Assembly: GCA_018394295.1 (NCBI GenBank)
Contig: CP074573.1
Coordinates: forward strand, 1,116,001 to 1,180,000
DNA from: Mycoplasmatota bacterium
GTDB taxonomy: Bacteria > Bacillota_I > Bacilli_A > Haloplasmatales > Haloplasmataceae
Direction: 5' to 3'
DNA length: 64,000 bases
Part shown: in pieces, positions 9,752 to 61,119 of the stretch
Layout of the letters: every line of letters starts with the position of its first letter
Numbering within the stretch: position 1 is the stretch's first letter
Position numbers and translations under genes: made by a program
The notes under the pieces: model-generated
The model's input: only the letters and a program-made list of their open reading frames with translations
Database searches by the model: none
Told to the model about the DNA's origin: nothing

Positions 9752-9782
9752 GGTAAATCCTATTTTGAAGTGAGGAGTGCGT

Positions 9783-11651
9783 ATGAATAAAAATAAGATT
9801 TTACATTTAGTAAAAAGTGCGCTTATAAAAGAAATAAACGATAATATTAGTCATTTGCTTGTTTATTTTAAAGATGTGGATCATGATGAAATTGATGAAA
9901 TCATTGCTCGATATGTCATAAATAATAATGAATTCACTACAGTCTTAAAATATCGTAATTATGACTGGATTATCGTTAATCAAGATAAAATTAAACTTTA
10001 TCCTGCCTATATCCATGCTGTTGGTGGTAAAAAATGGGGTTATATAAATGAAAAAGGAAAATATTGTATAAAACCTACCTTTAATCATGATGAGGAATTT
10101 AAAGATGAACTAGCGATAGTCCAAGTAGATAATTTATTTGGAGTGATTAATGATAAAGGAGAATATATCGTAAACCCAATCTATGAAAATATTGAACCAT
10201 TTCATGAAAACAGGGCAATTGTTACTTTAAATAATGAGCAGTTTATCATAAATGAAAGAGGAGAAATATTATCTGTAAAAGGATATCCTTATTTAGGAAA
10301 CTTTCATGATAGCCGTGCAGTTGTAAAAGATAAGGTAAATAAAGAATATTTGTTTGGATATCTAGATTCAGCAGGTGAGGTAGTTATCCCAATTAAGTAT
10401 AAAGAGGCAAATGATTTTAATAATCATAAAGCAGTGGTCAAAGCTACTAAATATCAATTAATAGATTTAGAAGGAAACATCTTACAGGAATATCCTTATG
10501 CTTATGTAGGCAATTATGGAGAAGGACGTTTAGTGATAAAAATTCAAGACAAGTGTGGATATATTAATGAAACAGGGGAAGTTATTATTAATCCACAGTA
10601 TCAAATTTGTCATGCCTATAAAGATGATTACGCGATAGTTAATCAAGAACAGGAATTATATAATACCTATGGGTTAATTGATTTAGAAGGGAAGGAACTC
10701 TTTAAACCGATATATAATCATTTAATCCCATTAGGTGAAAAACGGTATGCAGTAGGATTGGCAAAAAACAAAAATAAACCCTACTTAGGCATATTATATG
10801 CCATTGGAAACGAAATGGGTGAATTTTTAACGGATTTTAAATATGAACAGATAAAACCCTATTATAATCATCTAGCAAGTGCTACTAAGAACAACAAAAC
10901 ATTTTTTATTGACTTAAATGGTGAAATAATTGAATCTTTACCAATTTTATCAGGCGTGGGTTCATTACAATTTATGGATCATATTATTCAAGCGAATATA
11001 GATCATGAATTGCATTATATTGATGATGAAGGTCAAATTATAAATTATCCAAATTATATTATCCCAATTAATGATTCACTTGATGTTGTAACAAAAAAAT
11101 ATAAACCTAATAAACAATATTTAGTTTACTATCCTAAAATTGAAAAGATAGGTATTCACAGAAGTGTAAATAAAAAATTAAAACAGTTAAGTCGAGTAAA
11201 AGAGGTACCCACCCATATACAATATGAATATTATGGGGATTTTACAGTTCTTAACTTACTAAATAATTTACTTCAAATTAAAATTGAAGGATATAAGTAC
11301 CAGTATGGGGCAGCTCATGGATTTTCCTATCAAGAATATGCCCATATTGATATAGAAACAGGTATATTTTATCAGTTATTTGATTTATTTAAAGAACAAT
11401 GTGATTATCACTTGATGTTAACAAATTGGGTAATTGAACACAAAAGAGATAAACACACGTTAATTGATGAGATGTATATTATAAAGGAGGATCCACTATT
11501 TTTTGTTGACACGAATCACCTACATATCGTATTTAAACCTTATGAGGTTGCCCCATATTCAGAAGGTTATATCACATTTTCAATTCCGTTCTCATCTATT
11601 ATGAATTGTATTGATATCAATAATGATTTTTGGAAATCATTTCATAATTAG
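9783..11651 (+). CDS. WG-repeat protein with C-terminal DUF3298 domain
   Basis: This protein of about 622 residues has many WG/KWG beta repeats in its N-terminal two-thirds, such as KKWGYINEKGKYCIKPTF and CGYINETGEVIINPQY. The C-terminus matches DUF3298 (RsiV-type): HGFSYQEYAHIDIETG, then a closing segment ITFSIPFSSIM. The ATG at 9783 is chosen because GAGGAG lies five bases before it; an in-frame GTG at 9777 overlaps that site. No signal peptide is visible, so it is probably cytoplasmic. WG repeats generally serve protein-protein binding; the function here is unknown. Confidence 0.8.
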   Translation: MNKNKILHLVKSALIKEINDNISHLLVYFKDVDHDEIDEIIARYVINNNEFTTVLKYRNYDWIIVNQDKIKLYPAYIHAVGGKKWGYINEKGKYCIKPTFNHDEEFKDELAIVQVDNLFGVINDKGEYIVNPIYENIEPFHENRAIVTLNNEQFIINERGEILSVKGYPYLGNFHDSRAVVKDKVNKEYLFGYLDSAGEVVIPIKYKEANDFNNHKAVVKATKYQLIDLEGNILQEYPYAYVGNYGEGRLVIKIQDKCGYINETGEVIINPQYQICHAYKDDYAIVNQEQELYNTYGLIDLEGKELFKPIYNHLIPLGEKRYAVGLAKNKNKPYLGILYAIGNEMGEFLTDFKYEQIKPYYNHLASATKNNKTFFIDLNGEIIESLPILSGVGSLQFMDHIIQANIDHELHYIDDEGQIINYPNYIIPINDSLDVVTKKYKPNKQYLVYYPKIEKIGIHRSVNKKLKQLSRVKEVPTHIQYEYYGDFTVLNLLNNLLQIKIEGYKYQYGAAHGFSYQEYAHIDIETGIFYQLFDLFKEQCDYHLMLTNWVIEHKRDKHTLIDEMYIIKEDPLFFVDTNHLHIVFKPYEVAPYSEGYITFSIPFSSIMNCIDINNDFWKSFHN

Positions 11652-11750: not shown

Positions 11751-12608
11751 TTGAAAGTTGATGCATTTTTTGAAGGTGGTGGGATATTAGGAATTAGCTT
11801 TATAGGGGCGTATAAAGCATTAACTGACCATGGAATATATATCGATAAAGCAATCGGTATTTCATGTGGTGCTATCCTAGCTACACTGATTACCGCAGGA
11901 TTTTCAGCCAATGAACTAATTACTTTATTAAATGTTTATAAAGACTTTTCTTTCCTCAAACAAAAGACACAGACTTCCAAAAGAAACTATATAGGAAAAC
12001 CACTCTCACTATTATTAAATAAAGGAATCTATGATAGTTATATTATTGAAAAGTTTATAGATAAAACTTTAAAACAAAAAAAAATCTCAACATTTGGTGA
12101 TGTAATGAGCTTAGGTGAGAGTAAGCTTAAAATGATTGCAGCTGATTTTACTAATAAAAGGATGCTTTTACTTCCTGATGACCTACCATTATATGGTTAT
12201 GATCCAATGGAATTTAAAATTGCGAAAGCGATTCGTATGAGTTGTGCAATCCCGTTTTTTTACACCCCTTACGAATTAAAATCAACTCATAAATCAAATT
12301 ATATTATTGATGGGGGAGTTATTAGAAATATCCCTACATCAGTCATTAATAAAAATCAGGAATTAAGTAAATTAACATTAAGATTTAAAATAAAAGGTAG
12401 TAGAAATAAATGGTTTAATAGTTTTAAAGATATTCAAAATACCTTGAAATATAATAAAGATAATACAAGTTATGAAAAACATATCATAATTAATACAGAT
12501 GGGCGTTTAAAAATAACAGACTTTGAGGTCAGTAGAGAACAAATAATTTATTTATATAGAGAAGGTTATAAAGCAGTCTATCAATTTATTAAGCATGAAT
12601 TATTATAA
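11751..12608 (+). CDS. patatin-like phospholipase
   Basis: This 285-residue protein has all patatin hallmarks: the oxyanion-hole loop FFEGGGILGISFIGA at the N-terminus, the nucleophile elbow AIGISCGA (GxSxG), and the catalytic aspartate in IIDGGVIRN. It probably hydrolyses acyl esters of membrane lipids as a cytoplasmic serine hydrolase. It begins at TTG with a GGGGAGG ribosome binding site. No signal peptide or transmembrane segment is apparent. It is a single-gene unit ended by a hairpin terminator. Confidence 0.9.
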   Translation: MKVDAFFEGGGILGISFIGAYKALTDHGIYIDKAIGISCGAILATLITAGFSANELITLLNVYKDFSFLKQKTQTSKRNYIGKPLSLLLNKGIYDSYIIEKFIDKTLKQKKISTFGDVMSLGESKLKMIAADFTNKRMLLLPDDLPLYGYDPMEFKIAKAIRMSCAIPFFYTPYELKSTHKSNYIIDGGVIRNIPTSVINKNQELSKLTLRFKIKGSRNKWFNSFKDIQNTLKYNKDNTSYEKHIIINTDGRLKITDFEVSREQIIYLYREGYKAVYQFIKHELL

Positions 12609-12632
12609 GTTACAGTAGTCTGTAACTTTTTT
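12607..12632 (+). terminator. intrinsic terminator after patatin gene
   Basis: AAGTTACAG pairs with CTGTAACTT around the loop TAGT and is followed by a T run. Confidence 0.8.
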
Positions 12633-12697: not shown

Positions 12698-14002
12698 GTG
12701 AGTAGAAATCAAATAGAATTAATAGAAGCTTATTTTAAACAAAATGAAAAAAATAAAAGAGATTTTATGATGGGTGCTGAGTTTGAATACTTTGTGGTTG
12801 ATAAAAAGACTTTAAAAGTCATTTCATATGATGGTGAAAATGGCGTTTTAAGCACACTAACAAATCTATTACATAAAGGATATGATGGAATTTATGATGA
12901 ACATCATCTAGTAGGTTTAAAAAAAGGGCAGTCGACTATTACTTTAGAACCAGGAAGTCAATTAGAAATTAGTTTAAAACCAGAAAAAGAAATTGCTTTT
13001 TTAGAATCTGAATATAAAAAAATATGTATGGATATTATCCCAATACTAGAGACAAAAAATCAAACATTAATCGCAACAGGTTATCAAGTTCATAGTCGTT
13101 TAGATGAAGTAAGTTTAATCCCAAAAAGAAGATATCATCGTATGTATGAGTACTTTAAATCTTGTGGAATTTACGCTCATCATATGATGAAACAAACTGC
13201 ATCTACACAAATTTGTATAGATTATGAAAGTGAATCTGATTATCAAAAAAAATATCGTATTTTAAATACTTTATCACCTATTTTTTATACCTTTTTTGAT
13301 AATGCACCATTTTTTGAATCAGAAACTTTTCCTAAACAATGTATTCGTTCACAAATTTGGGATAATTGTGATGAGAATCGTTGTGGTATCATAAAAAATT
13401 CTATATCTGATGATTTTAGTTATAAAGGATACGCTAATTACCTATTAAATCAATCGATTATTATTAGAGATGATGTTAATACATCTCAATCCTTATATAG
13501 GGATTTATTAAATCCTAATCATGTAGATGAATTAGAACAGGCGTTATCAATGGTTTTTCCAGATGTTCGCACAAGGAAATTTATAGAAGTTCGAATGATT
13601 GATTCACTACCCTATCCACTTAATTTATCAGTCGTTGCATTCTTTAAAGGATTGTTTTATGATGAAGCAAACGTAAATGAATTATATCAATTCTTAAAAA
13701 AAATTAATATAGAAGATGTTTTAAATGCTAAACTAAAAATAGTTGAGTATGGGATAGACACGAACTTAAAAGACTATAGTATATATGAAGTTATGAAGTA
13801 TTTATATACACTTTCATATAAAGGATTAAATAATAAAGAAAAGAAATATTTATTACCACTGATGAATCTCATTCAATTAAAACAAACACCACAACAATTA
13901 ACAAAAACGCAATTGAACCTAGGAAAATCAAAAGCTTTAGAATGGTGTATGATACAAGAAGGTTTATTTAGGGAGGTGTGTATATGGATGCAAGCTGTAT
14001 AA
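12698..14002 (+). CDS. glutamate-cysteine ligase-like enzyme (GCS2/EgtA-like)
   Basis: This 434-residue protein resembles the plant/actinobacterial type of glutamate-cysteine ligase. Early motifs include MMGAEFEYFVVD (the metal-binding Glu-x-Glu strand), ITLEPGSQLEISLKP and TASTQICIDY; a late segment FIEVRMIDSLPYPL matches the substrate-binding arginine region. It starts at GTG after AAGGATG. Members join glutamate and cysteine using ATP. The next gene, an ATP-grasp ligase, overlaps it by 19 bases, suggesting a two-step synthesis of a gamma-glutamyl thiol or related peptide. Confidence 0.8.
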   Translation: MSRNQIELIEAYFKQNEKNKRDFMMGAEFEYFVVDKKTLKVISYDGENGVLSTLTNLLHKGYDGIYDEHHLVGLKKGQSTITLEPGSQLEISLKPEKEIAFLESEYKKICMDIIPILETKNQTLIATGYQVHSRLDEVSLIPKRRYHRMYEYFKSCGIYAHHMMKQTASTQICIDYESESDYQKKYRILNTLSPIFYTFFDNAPFFESETFPKQCIRSQIWDNCDENRCGIIKNSISDDFSYKGYANYLLNQSIIIRDDVNTSQSLYRDLLNPNHVDELEQALSMVFPDVRTRKFIEVRMIDSLPYPLNLSVVAFFKGLFYDEANVNELYQFLKKINIEDVLNAKLKIVEYGIDTNLKDYSIYEVMKYLYTLSYKGLNNKEKKYLLPLMNLIQLKQTPQQLTKTQLNLGKSKALEWCMIQEGLFREVCIWMQAV

Positions 14003-15294
14003 ATGAAATGTATATTGAGTTGATTAAAAATGGGGATTATGAAACAGATTATCAAAAGATGATTAATCAAGCAACTCATTTAAATTTATTGTATAAAGGG
14101 GAACCAATCCCCTTTTTATACCATCCGATGTTTTTTACAGAAAAAGATATCAAGCAGTTTAAAAATATTACTAAAACTTTAATGTCTATTGGAAATAAAG
14201 TCATTAAAGAGTATATAGACTCTCCTAGCTACCGACTAAAATTTGGGTTTCCCCCTTTATTAGAAGAATTAATATTAAAAGATCATGGGTATGATATTAA
14301 TATCCCGATAGGAAGATTTGATCTATTTTATAATGGCGATGAATTTAAGTTCTGTGAACTGAATACTGATGGATCATCCGCTATGAATGAAGATAATACC
14401 TTAGCAAAAATATTACTTGAGTCTAAAGTTCTTAAGAAAATGAAAGATACTTATCAAATAGACTATCTTGATTGTATCAATACCTGGGTAGATGAAAGTA
14501 TTAAATTATATCATGAGTATTCACTAAGTGATGAAAAACCGACGGTAGCGATTGTTGACTTTAAAGAAAGTGCAACAACGTATGAGTTTATTGAGTTTAA
14601 AAAAGCTTATGAAAACAAGGGATATAATACACTAATTTGTGATGCTCGTGATCTAGAATACATAAACGGCAAGTTATTTTATGAAAGCCAGCAAATTGAT
14701 TTAATTTATCGAAGAATTGTGACAAAAGAATTGATAGATAGAAGTCATGAAATAGAAGATTTTATTAAAGCTTATAAAGACCAAGCAGTATGTGTAATAG
14801 GACCTCTAAAATCACAAATACTACATAATAAAATAATTTTTAAAATTTTACATGATGAGGATACGCTTGAATTATTAAGTACTGATGAAAAACAATTTGT
14901 GAAAAAACATATTCCAATCACAAAGCGATTTGTTGGTGGTTATGATGTCTATGAAGAAGTATTAGAAAACAAAGATAAATATATTATTAAACCTTGTGAT
15001 TTATATGGGTCCCGTGGTGTTTATGTTGGACTAGATTTTAGTAGAAAACAATGGGAAGGTAAATTAAAGAAATGTTTTAATAATGATTATTTATATCAAG
15101 AATATTTCCATCCTTTTGAAAGAAATTTTATTGAATTTGAAAATCATAAGATAAAAGTCAGCCCATTCAAATGTATTACAGGATTATTTGTTTATAACGA
15201 GAAATTTGCCGGATTATATACAAGAATTGGGAAGAATCATATTATTTCTGGATTACATGGCTATTATACGGTTCCTAATTTGATTATAAAATAA
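13984..15294 (+). CDS. circularly permuted ATP-grasp ligase, glutathionylspermidine-synthase-like
   Basis: This protein of about 436 residues has features of the circularly permuted ATP-grasp group: FCELNTDGSSAMNEDN near residue 120, KPCDLYGSRGVYVG (nucleotide-binding glycine loop), YQEYFHPFERN, and the end motif AGLYTRIGKNHIIS. The ATG at 13984 has a GGGAGG site seven bases before it. Members form amide bonds between carboxylates and amines. Overlap with the glutamate-cysteine ligase gene suggests it acts on gamma-glutamylcysteine, adding glycine, a polyamine or another amine; it is not the standard GshB type. A hairpin terminator follows. Confidence 0.7.
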   Translation: MDASCINEMYIELIKNGDYETDYQKMINQATHLNLLYKGEPIPFLYHPMFFTEKDIKQFKNITKTLMSIGNKVIKEYIDSPSYRLKFGFPPLLEELILKDHGYDINIPIGRFDLFYNGDEFKFCELNTDGSSAMNEDNTLAKILLESKVLKKMKDTYQIDYLDCINTWVDESIKLYHEYSLSDEKPTVAIVDFKESATTYEFIEFKKAYENKGYNTLICDARDLEYINGKLFYESQQIDLIYRRIVTKELIDRSHEIEDFIKAYKDQAVCVIGPLKSQILHNKIIFKILHDEDTLELLSTDEKQFVKKHIPITKRFVGGYDVYEEVLENKDKYIIKPCDLYGSRGVYVGLDFSRKQWEGKLKKCFNNDYLYQEYFHPFERNFIEFENHKIKVSPFKCITGLFVYNEKFAGLYTRIGKNHIISGLHGYYTVPNLIIK

Positions 15295-17362: not shown

Positions 17363-17995
17363 GTGATACAGTTAAATAATCGTCTGAAACAAATTGTAGA
17401 AATTGTTCGTAAAGATCAACCGATAACTGGTGAACAAATTGCTTCAAAATTATCGGTTACAAGGGCGACTTTAAGGCCTGATTTAGCCATATTAACGATG
17501 TCTGGTATATTAGGAGCGCGACCTAAGTTTGGCTATTTTTATATTGGAATGGATGAAAATGTGCTTATTTCTAGAAAAATCAAAGAGAAAAATGTTGAAG
17601 AGATAAAGAGTTTACCGATTATGGTAAGTGAACAAACATCAGTTTACGATACTATTGTTACGATGTTTTTAGAAGATGTTGGGACAATTATTGTGAGCCA
17701 AAAAGGGTATTTGTCTGGAATTGTATCTAGAAAAGATTTACTAAAATCAGTAATTGGTGGTGGAGATATTAATAAAATTCCTGTAGGCATTATCATGACA
17801 AGAATGCCTAATGTTGTTTTTATTGAACCATTTGATGAGGTGATTACCGCAGCGAAAAAAATTATTGAACATGAAATTGATTGTTTACCTGTTGTCAATA
17901 AAGAAGTGATTGAAGATAAAGAGTATTATAAGGTAGTCGGGAGAGTCACCAAAACAAATATTACGAAATTGTTTGTTGAGTTATCTGGGGAGTAA
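17363..17995 (+). CDS. ccpN: CcpN-type transcriptional repressor (HTH plus CBS domains)
   Basis: This 210-residue protein has an N-terminal winged helix (QPITGEQIASKLSVTRATLRPDLAIL) followed by two CBS repeats (YDTIVTMFLEDVGTIIV...GIVSRKDLLK and VITAAKKIIEHEIDCLPVV). CcpN represses gluconeogenic genes in Bacillus when glycolytic flux is high. It begins at GTG after AGAGGTGG. Directly downstream are the PPDK regulator and ppdK, so it likely controls pyruvate-phosphoenolpyruvate interconversion here, consistent with its known pairing with YqfL. Confidence 0.9.
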   Translation: MIQLNNRLKQIVEIVRKDQPITGEQIASKLSVTRATLRPDLAILTMSGILGARPKFGYFYIGMDENVLISRKIKEKNVEEIKSLPIMVSEQTSVYDTIVTMFLEDVGTIIVSQKGYLSGIVSRKDLLKSVIGGGDINKIPVGIIMTRMPNVVFIEPFDEVITAAKKIIEHEIDCLPVVNKEVIEDKEYYKVVGRVTKTNITKLFVELSGE

Positions 17996-25509: not shown

Positions 25510-26331
25510 ATGGAAAAACTAATAATTACTGCAGCGATATGTGGCGCAGAAGTAACCAAAGAACATACTAATGCAATTCCTTATACAATTGATGAAATTG
25601 TACGTGAAGCATATGGTGCTTACAAAGCAGGTGCTAGCATTATCCATTTACATGTAAGAGAGGATGATGGAACACCAACACAAAGCAAAGATCGTTTTAA
25701 AGAAGCGATAGATGCGATTAAGGCACATTGCCCAGATGTTATTATACAACCATCAACTGGTGGGGCAGTTGGTATGAGTTGTGATGAGAGATTACAACCA
25801 ATTGAACTTAATCCTGAAATGGCAACCCTTGATTGTGGAACACTTAATTTTGGTGGAGATGATATCTTTGTTAATACAGAAAATGATATTAAAGAGTTTG
25901 CTCGTCGCATTCAAGAAAAAAATATTAAACCAGAATTAGAGTGCTTTGAAAAAGGGCATATCGATATGGTATTAAGACTTCATAAAAAAGGGTTTATTAA
26001 GGGACCACTTCACTTTAGTTTTGTTTTAGGTGTTAATGGGGGGATGAGCGGAGAATTAAGAGATTTCTTATATATGAAAGAATCATTGCCACAGGATACT
26101 ACTTATTCAGTAGCTGGAATTGGTCGTTATGAATTTCCACTAGCTACAGTATCTATTTTAAGTGGAGGTCATGTAAGAGTTGGTTTTGAGGATAATATCT
26201 ATCTTAAAAAAGGTCAATTAGCGCAATCAAATGGTGAATTAGTCGAGAAAGTTGTACGACTAGCCAAAGAATTAGGGAGAGAAATTGCAACACCAGATGA
26301 AGCGCGTAAAATATTAGGAATAAATAAATAG
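25510..26331 (+). CDS. kce: 3-keto-5-aminohexanoate cleavage enzyme
   Basis: This 273-residue protein belongs to the BKACE (DUF849) family: IITAAICGAEVTKEHTNAIP, the metal-binding SIIHLHVREDDG (HxH), IIQPSTGGAVGM, GTLNFGGDDIF and the late GGHVRVGFEDNIYL. It joins acetyl-CoA with 3-keto-5-aminohexanoate to give acetoacetate and 3-aminobutyryl-CoA using Zn. It has an AGGAGG site and lies between kal and kdd, as expected for this pathway. Confidence 0.94.
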   Translation: MEKLIITAAICGAEVTKEHTNAIPYTIDEIVREAYGAYKAGASIIHLHVREDDGTPTQSKDRFKEAIDAIKAHCPDVIIQPSTGGAVGMSCDERLQPIELNPEMATLDCGTLNFGGDDIFVNTENDIKEFARRIQEKNIKPELECFEKGHIDMVLRLHKKGFIKGPLHFSFVLGVNGGMSGELRDFLYMKESLPQDTTYSVAGIGRYEFPLATVSILSGGHVRVGFEDNIYLKKGQLAQSNGELVEKVVRLAKELGREIATPDEARKILGINK

Positions 26332-58129: not shown

Positions 58130-59194
58130 ATGGCTAAAGTTATGATGAAAGGTAATGAAGCGATGGCACTAGCGGCCATTAAAGGTGGATGTAGAGCCTT
58201 TTTTGGATATCCAATTACACCTCAAAGCGAATTACCTGAATATTTAGCAAGACATATGCATAAATATGGAGGAGTATTTCTTCAAGCAGAATCTGAAGTT
58301 GCCGCAATTAATATGGTTTATGGAGCGAGTGGAGCAGGAGCACGAGTAATGACTTCTTCATCATCTCCTGGGATAGCCTTAAAACAAGAAGGTATTTCAT
58401 ATATAGCTGGAGCAGAATTACCAGCAGTAATCATTAATGTTATGAGAGGTGGTCCAGGTCTTGGTGGTATTCAACCTTCACAAGCAGATTATAAACAAGT
58501 AACACGTGGTGGAGGAAATGGAGACTATTATGTATTAGCCTTTGCTCCTGAGAATTTACAAGAAACCGTTAATATAATTAAAGAATCTTTTGATTTAGCT
58601 GATTTATATAGAAATCCTGTAATGATTGCTGTTGATGGTTTAATTGGACAAATGATGGAACCAGTAGATTTAGATGTTGAGATTTCAAAAAAAGACCTAC
58701 CAGAAAAAACATGGGCAACAACAGGAACTGATGGAAAACGTCCACCTGTAAACGTAAATTCATTATTCTTAGATGCCCAAGATTTAGAGAATCATAGTTT
58801 TAAATTAGATAAAAAATATAAATTAATCAAAGAAAACGAACAACGTTACGAATTTGTAAATATGGATAATCCAGAATTAGTAATCGTTGCTTATGGAACT
58901 ATGTCAAGAATCGTACGAAGTGCTTTAGAAATATTAAACAACGAAGGCATTAAAGTTGGTTTATTAAGACCTATTTCAATTTGGCCATTCCCAGAAAAAG
59001 CTTTTAATGAACTTCCTGATTCTGTAAAAGGCATTTTAACCTGTGAATTAAGTACAGGACAGATGGTTGATGATGTTAAAATAGCGAATGATGGTAAATT
59101 ACCAGTTGGATTCTTTGGAAGAACTGGTGGAATGGTACCAGAACCAGAAGAAATCGTACAAGCTGTTAAAGACATGCTAAGGGGGTTGAAATAA
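58130..59194 (+). CDS. 2-oxoacid:ferredoxin oxidoreductase, alpha subunit
   Basis: This 354-residue protein has the pyrimidine-binding and transketolase-C-like pattern: GNEAMALAAIKGGCRAFFGYPITPQSE, FLQAESEVAAINMVYGASGAGAR, and LVIVAYGTMSRIVRSALEIL near the C-terminus. In the complex it binds thiamine diphosphate with the beta subunit and decarboxylates branched-chain 2-oxoacids to acyl-CoA. Specificity for 2-oxoisovalerate (Vor) rather than 2-oxoglutarate (Kor) is inferred from the neighbouring leucine dehydrogenase. Confidence 0.9.
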   Translation: MAKVMMKGNEAMALAAIKGGCRAFFGYPITPQSELPEYLARHMHKYGGVFLQAESEVAAINMVYGASGAGARVMTSSSSPGIALKQEGISYIAGAELPAVIINVMRGGPGLGGIQPSQADYKQVTRGGGNGDYYVLAFAPENLQETVNIIKESFDLADLYRNPVMIAVDGLIGQMMEPVDLDVEISKKDLPEKTWATTGTDGKRPPVNVNSLFLDAQDLENHSFKLDKKYKLIKENEQRYEFVNMDNPELVIVAYGTMSRIVRSALEILNNEGIKVGLLRPISIWPFPEKAFNELPDSVKGILTCELSTGQMVDDVKIANDGKLPVGFFGRTGGMVPEPEEIVQAVKDMLRGLK

Positions 59195-59952
59195 TGGGAA
59201 AAGTTGTTTTTAAAAGATCAGAAGGATTATCAAAAAAAGAATTCTCATATTGCCCTGGATGTACACATGGAATTATCCATCGTTTAGTTGCTGAAGTAAT
59301 TGAAGAATTAGGTATTATAGATAAAACAATTGGGATATCACCTGTTGGGTGTTCAGTAATGAACTATGAGTTTTTCAACTGTGATATGCAACAAGCAGCT
59401 CATGGACGAGCTCCTGCAGTTGCAACAGGAATTAAGCGTGTTAGACCTGATAATATCGTATTTTCATATCAAGGTGATGGAGATTTAGCATCAATTGGTA
59501 CAGCTGAAATTATCCATGCTGCGCATCGTTCAGAGAACATAACGGTTATATTTGTTAATAATGCGATATATGGGATGACTGGTGGTCAAATGGCTCCAAC
59601 AACTTTAATCGGACAAAAAACCACAACATCACCATATGGACGTGAAGAAAAACATGCAGGTAAACCAATTAAAATGTCAGAGTTATTAGCGACTATTCCA
59701 GGTGCTTCCTTTATTGAAAGAGTATCTGTACATGACCCAGCCCATGTAAGAAAAGCTAAAAAAGCAATCAAAAAAGCATTTGAAGTACAAGTAGAAGGGA
59801 AAGGTTTCTCATTAGTAGAGCTTATCTCAACTTGTCCAGTAAACTGGGGTAAAACACCACAAGATGCATTAAATTGGGCAAAAGAAAATATGATACCTTA
59901 TTATCCACTTGGAAACTTTAGAACTCCAGAGGAGGATGGTAAAAATGATTAA
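59194..59952 (+). CDS. 2-oxoacid:ferredoxin oxidoreductase, beta subunit
   Basis: This 252-residue protein carries the thiamine diphosphate motif QGDGDLASIGTAEIIHAAHRS...NNAIYGMTGGQ (GDG to NN) and an N-terminal cysteine cluster in SYCPGCTHGIIHRLVAE. It overlaps the alpha gene by one base. It completes the catalytic core with the alpha subunit. Cysteine in CPGCTHG is consistent with the conserved site of this subunit. Confidence 0.92.
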   Translation: MGKVVFKRSEGLSKKEFSYCPGCTHGIIHRLVAEVIEELGIIDKTIGISPVGCSVMNYEFFNCDMQQAAHGRAPAVATGIKRVRPDNIVFSYQGDGDLASIGTAEIIHAAHRSENITVIFVNNAIYGMTGGQMAPTTLIGQKTTTSPYGREEKHAGKPIKMSELLATIPGASFIERVSVHDPAHVRKAKKAIKKAFEVQVEGKGFSLVELISTCPVNWGKTPQDALNWAKENMIPYYPLGNFRTPEEDGKND

Positions 59953-60645: not shown

Positions 60646-61119
60646 ATGGAAAATCAATTTTTACCTAATGTTGCAGTTTCGAAAGTGAAAGGGGGAAAAC
60701 AGTATCCAAATATATATGGAGAAGTTTATTTTGAAGATGTCCCTGAAGGAGTGATGGTTTATGTCTATATTTCTGGACTTCCTGATTATAAACCAGGCAA
60801 TCCACAGATTGGTCCACATGGTTTTCACATTCATGAATATGAAGATTGTACAGAAGGAGAAGAGTCTTCACCTTTCTTAGCTGCAGGAGAACATTGGAAT
60901 CCTACAAATCAACCACATGGTAACCATCCTGGAGATTTTCCCGTTCTATTTTCTAATAATGGGGTAGCTTATATGTCCTTTTTTACGAATAAATTTACAG
61001 TAGATCAAATTATAAGTAAATCAATCATCATTCATGAAAATCCTGATGATTATCAAAGTCAACCTGCTGGTAATGCTGGAAAAAGAATTGCATGTGGTAT
61101 TATTAAACCGATGTTTTAA
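60646..61119 (+). CDS. Cu/Zn superoxide dismutase-like protein, cytosolic
   Basis: This 157-residue protein has all metal ligands of Cu/Zn SOD: copper histidines at 61 and 63 (GFHIHEYEDC) and 130 (IIIHENPDD), the bridging and zinc residues at 83, 91, 94 and 97 (GEHWNP and HGNHPGD), the disulfide cysteines 68 and 150, and the active-site arginine 147 (AGKRIACG). There is no signal peptide, which is unusual for bacteria, where this enzyme is normally exported. Its end overlaps the convergent oxidoreductase gene by 17 bases. Confidence 0.88.
   Translation: MENQFLPNVAVSKVKGGKQYPNIYGEVYFEDVPEGVMVYVYISGLPDYKPGNPQIGPHGFHIHEYEDCTEGEESSPFLAAGEHWNPTNQPHGNHPGDFPVLFSNNGVAYMSFFTNKFTVDQIISKSIIIHENPDDYQSQPAGNAGKRIACGIIKPMF

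Follow-up and report, generated by a model that had tools for sequence, protein, structure and literature searches.

A glutamate-cysteine ligase and a circularly permuted ATP-grasp ligase form a conserved gene pair predicted to synthesize a gamma-glutamyl thiol

Introduction

Which thiol, if any, is made by a glutamate-cysteine ligase (GCL) whose partner is neither GshB nor a part of GshF? This question is raised by two overlapping genes in the genome of a Mycoplasmatota bacterium of the Haloplasmataceae (CP074573.1). The window analyzed here is a stretch of 64,000 nucleotides of this genome. A sequence-only reading of it had named glutathione, a gamma-glutamyl-cysteinyl amine or a novel thiol as the possible product.

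The literature searched does not settle which main thiol most anaerobic Firmicutes use, and no description of this GCL-ligase pair was found among open-licence papers. The pair is a concrete candidate for such a thiol system, as it is self-contained and conserved in a large order that ferments amino acids. The analysis shows a real, conserved pair whose functions are coupled and which represents a non-orthologous form of gamma-glutamyl thiol synthesis in two steps, with a predicted product. If the second enzyme makes glutathione, it represents a further evolutionary solution to that step. If its product differs from glutathione, it points to a new thiol.

Results and discussion

Architecture of the locus

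The two genes and their 19-base overlap were found as the sequence-only reading had described them (Table 1). The longest open reading frame of gene 2 (13978–15294, plus strand) encodes 438 residues. A Shine-Dalgarno-like AGGGAGG within gene 1 is separated by seven bases from the ATG at 13984. Most likely this ATG is the true start, which results in a protein of 436 residues and in the observed overlap. An overlap of the same length is present at loci L003 and L041. Close homologues share the same gene arrangement and thus chance open reading frames are ruled out.

A terminator-like hairpin followed by a T run is located between a patatin gene and the GCL gene. The scan yielded two such sites compared to 0.5 expected in shuffled sequences, which is no proof of function. 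On the plus strand downstream of the pair, there is no open reading frame of at least 80 residues before position 17363. Judged from these two features, the pair looks like a transcription unit of its own.

Table 1. Features of the gene pair (positions in the window).
Feature	Position	Strand	Remarks
Terminator-like hairpin with T run, between patatin gene and GCL gene	12607–12628	+	consensus scan
Gene 1, glutamate-cysteine ligase (GCL), plant-type GCS2	12698–14002	+	434 aa, GTG start; profile, sequence and model
Shine-Dalgarno-like AGGGAGG for gene 2, within gene 1	13970–13976	+	read from sequence
Gene 2, circularly permuted ATP-grasp ligase, GSP_synth family	13984–15294	+	436 aa from ATG
Overlap of gene 1 and gene 2, 19 bases	13984–14002	+	ORF coordinates and choice of start
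Ligase catalytic stretch R111-x-D113 ... E125-x-N127-x-D129-G-x-S132-x-M134	14314–14385	+	named residues invariant in 41/41 homologues
Y242-R243-R244, Y-x-R spacing of the eukaryotic glutathione synthetase S-loop	14707–14715	+	invariant in 41/41 homologues; putative equivalence by motif

Gene 1 encodes a GCL of the plant type

The Pfam family GCS2 (PF04107) is matched by gene 1 with 86.6 bits (cut-off 21). The best NCBIfam score is obtained with the plant GCL model TIGR01436 (200.5 bits, full-length, 3e-59), which is under the equivalog cut-off of 463.15 bits. The scores for EgtA, the GCL of ergothioneine synthesis (TIGR03444, 99.6 bits), and for the carboxylate-amine ligase model (24.5 bits) are likewise under the respective cut-offs (370.8 bits for EgtA). 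In the PDB, the sequence matches are three plant GCL sequences. The structure model (mean pLDDT 93.5) aligns best with Brassica GCL (2GWC) with a TM score of 0.90, followed by YbdK with 0.62. Gene 1 therefore shares the full-length profile match and the fold with plant-type GCL but differs in its low identity (~24% to 2GWC according to Foldseek), its sub-equivalog score and its partner, a GSP_synth-family permuted ATP-grasp ligase. As a plant-type GCL it lies outside every curated equivalog, and the GCL assignment of the earlier reading stands.

Gene 2 belongs to the GSP_synth family

Gene 2 scores 50.8 bits against Pfam GSP_synth (PF03738, cut-off 29.3) and stays below the Pfam cut-offs for CP_ATPgrasp_1 and CP_ATPgrasp_2. 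NCBIfam has no match, neither for gene 2 nor for any of 41 homologues. PF02955 (GshB) is not matched at an E-value of 0.01 and PF04262 is absent from all 37 pair-bearing genomes described below, so that gene 2 is rejected as a GshB or as a part of GshF. This agrees with the reading of gene 2 as a permuted, glutathionylspermidine-synthase-like ATP-grasp ligase.

The structure model of gene 2 (mean pLDDT 91.9) matches the glutathione synthetases of human, yeast and plants, homoglutathione synthetase, GspS, YgiC/YjfC and Cp1B over the whole length. In Foldseek, human glutathione synthetase ranks first (E 1.4e-17), with the yeast enzyme (in complex with gamma-Glu-Cys) and homoglutathione synthetases also among the top matches. 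In VIA-align, YgiC/YjfC rank first (Z 31.1) and GspS and the glutathione synthetases reach about 27–30. The fold alone thus gives no decision between YgiC/YjfC, GspS and the glutathione synthetases. A reference to which a passage of PMC12568646 points describes YgiC/YjfC as peptide-spermidine ligases. The best PDB match of the family profile is Cp1B, a fungal E-64 ligase (9CJN, 2.9e-06), which couples an acid with an amino acid according to the same passage. In contrast to gene 2, Cp1B has another acyl substrate and no GCL partner.

Active site of gene 2

Residues were mapped by alignment of gene 2 to GspS of E. coli K-12, and conservation was assessed over the 41 homologues. Arg316, Asp318, Glu330, Asn332, Ser337, Lys498, Lys533 and Arg598 of GspS correspond to Arg111, Asp113, Glu125, Asn127, Ser132, Lys283, Lys336 and Arg414, each present in 41/41 sequences. 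All eight GspS residues are catalytic. The role of Ser337 and the acidic spermidine pocket of GspS, formed by Asp387, Asp389, Glu391 and Glu392, are described in a section of PMC6272389. The pocket residues align with Phe193, Glu or Gly195 (Glu in 24/41), Gly or Ala197 and Thr198 in an alignment of 17% identity that is gap-free across the pocket region. According to this alignment, the acidic pocket is not retained among the 41 homologues. With GspS and YgiC/YjfC, gene 2 thus has the Pfam family in common, and with GspS the eight mapped residues. It differs from both in its link to a GCL, and from GspS in the lost pocket and in lacking the N-terminal amidase domain (only ligase families match its 436 residues).

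In eukaryotic glutathione synthetase, gamma-Glu-Cys is contacted by Arg125, Ser149, Ser151, Glu214, Asn216, Arg267 and Arg450; Arg267 is aided by a Tyr two residues earlier, and Glu214 and Asn216 form an E-x-N motif that contacts the gamma-Glu moiety (all from a portion of PMC2845819). Mapped by motif rather than by sequence alignment, these sites would correspond to Arg111, Gly130, Ser132, positions 197 and 199, Tyr242-x-Arg244 and Arg414 of gene 2. The counterparts of Arg125, Ser151, Arg267 and Arg450 are kept on this mapping, whereas Ser149, the first Ser of the SxS motif, is replaced by Gly130 and the E-x-N positions appear as Gly or Ala197 and Thr, Ser or Ile199. Gene 2 and the eukaryotic glutathione and homoglutathione synthetases are alike in fold, in the presumed substrate gamma-Glu-Cys and, on this motif mapping, in the catalytic Arg on the cysteine side, one Ser, the lid Arg and Y-x-R. 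They differ in overall sequence (13–16% identity), in Gly130 and in the E-x-N motif, which by position seems to be lost. Close to this site, Asp192, Glu201 and Phe202 are invariant; these residues may stand in for E-x-N. Where glutathione-synthetase-like enzymes have abandoned gamma-Glu-Cys as a substrate, the same half of the pocket is altered, as mentioned in a part of PMC5919673, and hence caution is advised regarding the substrate of gene 2.

The ligase is coupled to GCL

Among 199 genomes of the Tissierellales, the order of Tissierella praeacuta, both genes are present in 86, GCL alone in 20, neither in 93 and the ligase alone in none. GCL is thus found in 106 genomes, including all ligase carriers (Fisher p 3e-37, uncorrected for relatedness). 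A second set consists of 37 ligase-bearing genomes, five of them Haloplasmataceae and the others represented by 32 loci of a GTDB scan. Each of these has a GCL, including eight genomes in which none is located beside the ligase. Conversely, GCL and ligase are both missing from three Haloplasmataceae, and genome G281 (locus L007), which encodes a gene 2 relative of 34% identity, has no GCL at all; absence of GCL was checked in 52 of 60 near genomes plus G281.

The sequence-only reading had proposed a neighborhood survey and would have been refuted by a pair that rarely occurs together; the survey revealed the opposite. At 56 loci of the scan, a GCL gene is immediately upstream of the ligase in 45 cases (44 separate, one fused), no GCL is adjacent in eight, and the contig breaks off at the other three. 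Of the unfused pairs, the window included, 27/45 overlap or touch and 44/45 are within 30 nucleotides. In a sample of the class of Oceanirhabdus, GCL lies within the fetched 1.5 kb at 25/29 strong loci. Two fusions of GCL and ligase are present, each in a single draft genome: one of 869 residues in a Haloplasmataceae metagenome-assembled genome, and one of 864 residues in a genome of a distant member of the Clostridia, with identities of 32% and 38% to the proteins of the window. Furthermore, GCL and ligase distances correlate with r 0.83 (30 rows, 435 pairs; uncorrected for organism phylogeny). The functional link of both enzymes is strong, and the joint pathway previously suggested from the overlap is borne out by the co-occurrence and by the fusions.

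In the 20 Tissierellales with GCL only, no replacement for the second enzyme was found beside GCL. A gene of ~455 codons adjoins GCL in 18 of them (L082–L099), often with overlapping ends. Its product was considered as a substitute second enzyme and rejected, as it has AAA, Lon C-terminal and rubredoxin-type domains and is a RadA-like ATPase of DNA-repair type. Of the remaining two genomes, one has an amino-acid permease beside GCL and the other is cut by a contig end.

Distribution and origin

Gene 2 was detected in 5/60 genomes consisting of the window's own and 59 relatives (all five Haloplasmataceae), and in 4/295 genomes of the phylum. The 56 loci of the GTDB scan, performed with a five-row alignment, are mostly from Tissierellales; other carriers belong to Haloplasmataceae, Oceanirhabdus, Ezakiella, Halanaerobiaceae and others. 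In the class of Oceanirhabdus, 31/391 genomes match gene 2, two of them only distantly. The pair is common in Tissierellales, present in a part of the Haloplasmataceae and not rare, and its occurrence in 86 of the 199 Tissierellales disagrees with the earlier notion that it is unusual in a low-oxygen fermenter. On the Selenomonas ruminantium plasmid pSRC2 (L143, 864–5206), genes for GCL, a MATE exporter and a permuted ATP-grasp ligase follow one another, the last being annotated as hypothetical.

A tree was calculated from 43 ligases, with an arbitrary root. Its four Haloplasmataceae rows group as a single clade (100/99) amid a Tissierellales-like set, whereby the forks just around this clade are open or do not reach 95/80. 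The gene 2 protein of the window is up to 59% identical to proteins of Tissierellales, a distant group. From this identity and the position of the clade, horizontal transfer of the ligase between the groups is likely, in either direction and once or repeatedly.

Other glutathione routes

The E. coli-type GshA and GshF family (PF04262) is absent from all 37 pair-bearing genomes, the window's own included. PF02955 is matched in 22/37, always with 58.8 bits or less, and it also matches the controls Bacillus subtilis and Methanocaldococcus jannaschii. Four strong matches (L102–L105) were tested as GshB and rejected, because all of them score best as RimK family. Three pass the RimK cut-off and L105 is below it (79.6 of 143.4 bits); the glutathione synthase models give 32–77 bits compared to cut-offs of 272–408. 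No true GshB was seen in pair-bearing genomes, with four strong PF02955 matches checked individually. Since PF04262 is missing and the PF02955 matches checked are RimK-like, the pair is the sole candidate glutathione route found in the 37 genomes. It has the two-step logic in common with the GshA-GshB and GshF pathways, whereas both of these enzyme types are missing from the pair-bearing genomes examined.

Neighboring genes

In three Haloplasmataceae, a D-2-hydroxyacid dehydrogenase gene is located directly 3' of the pair (L008, 10356–11312; L009, 10363–11334; L010, 14560–15531). The window contains no remnant of it (best tblastn E 3.5), and its genome encodes just a paralogue of 26% identity elsewhere. 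As a third pathway gene it was rejected due to its restriction to three genomes, and a weak hint remains. In Tissierellia, the pair is accompanied by genes for a cation-efflux (CDF) transporter, TrkA/TrkH, uracil-DNA glycosylase, hydrolases, FeFe-hydrogenase-like proteins and diaminopimelate dehydrogenase. These neighbors track synteny and point to no product. The CDF gene is near the pair at L029, L034, L042, L044, L048–L050, L057 and L061 (seven upstream, two downstream); a metal-thiol link via this transporter is possible.

Predicted pathway and alternatives

The explanation that we favor, and consider fairly probable, is a dedicated two-step pathway. Gene 1 would form gamma-glutamylcysteine from glutamate and cysteine. 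Gene 2 would then phosphorylate the cysteine carboxylate with ATP and link it to a third molecule via the amino group of the latter. With glycine, the simplest case, glutathione would be formed; otherwise a tripeptide ending in another residue would result. In anaerobic Firmicutes and Haloplasmataceae, gene 2 would thereby take the place of glutathione synthetase without being its orthologue. We know of no other enzyme of this type with such a role. That its substrate is gamma-Glu-Cys and its nucleophile an amino acid is inferred.

Very probably, the pair builds glutathione or a close variant. For glutathione itself the chances are slightly short of even, and a product with another amino acid is rather unlikely. 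Glycine seems the simplest nucleophile, and the model suggests that other amino acids would be equally possible structurally. Such end-residue variants are homoglutathione in plants (mentioned in a part of PMC5919673) and hydroxymethyl-glutathione in rice (mentioned in a part of PMC6508825). The 20 of 106 GCL-bearing Tissierellales without the ligase argue against the favored pathway, as gamma-Glu-Cys would be used there without gene 2.

Neither the D-2-hydroxyacid dehydrogenase nor the MATE exporter of pSRC2 is accounted for by plain glutathione. Tentatively, the product may be an undescribed thiol gamma-Glu-Cys-X, on which Tissierellales, some other Clostridia and a part of the Haloplasmataceae would rely as their main thiol system. 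X would be an amino acid other than glycine or an amine, perhaps an ester-linked hydroxy acid in the dehydrogenase-bearing Haloplasmataceae. VanA, together with VanH, joins a hydroxy acid as an ester.

It is unlikely that gene 2 couples gamma-Glu-Cys to an amine, for example spermidine, putrescine, cadaverine or agmatine. The product would then be a gamma-Glu-Cys-amine thiol, which resembles glutathionylspermidine but is shorter. GSP_synth is the nearest curated family, the nearest folds by Z-score are the peptide-spermidine ligases YgiC/YjfC, and the window's genome encodes a spermidine synthase (4.1e-62). However, the match to spermidine synthase is strong in 24 of the 37 pair-bearing genomes, middling in two and weak or missing in 11, although polyamine uptake is possible in genomes without a strong match. 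Together with the lost acidic pocket, these genomes disfavor spermidine. Of the products named from the sequence alone, the polyamine branch is therefore weakened.

A non-thiol gamma-glutamyl peptide, for instance an exported metabolite or a metallophore, would arise if gene 1 ligated glutamate to another amine. The score far under the equivalog cut-off, the exporter gene between GCL and ligase on pSRC2 and the CDF gene at nine loci are consistent with this, but plant GCL is the best match of gene 1 by profile, sequence and fold alike, which makes such a product improbable. That gene 2 uses another acyl substrate and is linked to GCL by regulation or history is very improbable given the complete co-occurrence in Tissierellales, the co-absence in Haloplasmataceae and two separate fusions, even though the GCL-less relative in G281 indicates that the fold family has other substrates.

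Genomic context of the window

Genes for lysine and ornithine fermentation are located at 25510–47259 of the window. They encode a beta-keto acid cleavage enzyme, lysine 2,3-aminomutase, the subunits of lysine 5,6-aminomutase, ornithine carbamoyltransferase, 2,4-diaminopentanoate dehydrogenase and an ornithine-aminomutase-like protein with a MutL-type protein. Amino-acid fermenters such as Tissierella have the same lifestyle.

A Cu/Zn superoxide dismutase (60646–61119, 157 residues, PF00080 E 3.5e-32) is encoded just after a 2-oxoacid:ferredoxin oxidoreductase gene set (58130–59952). The enzyme is thus present as the sequence-only reading had noted, but its proposed tie to the pair, 45 kb away, is unsupported. 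Upstream of the pair, at 9777–11651, the window encodes a WG-repeat protein with a DUF3298/RsiV-like C-terminal part.
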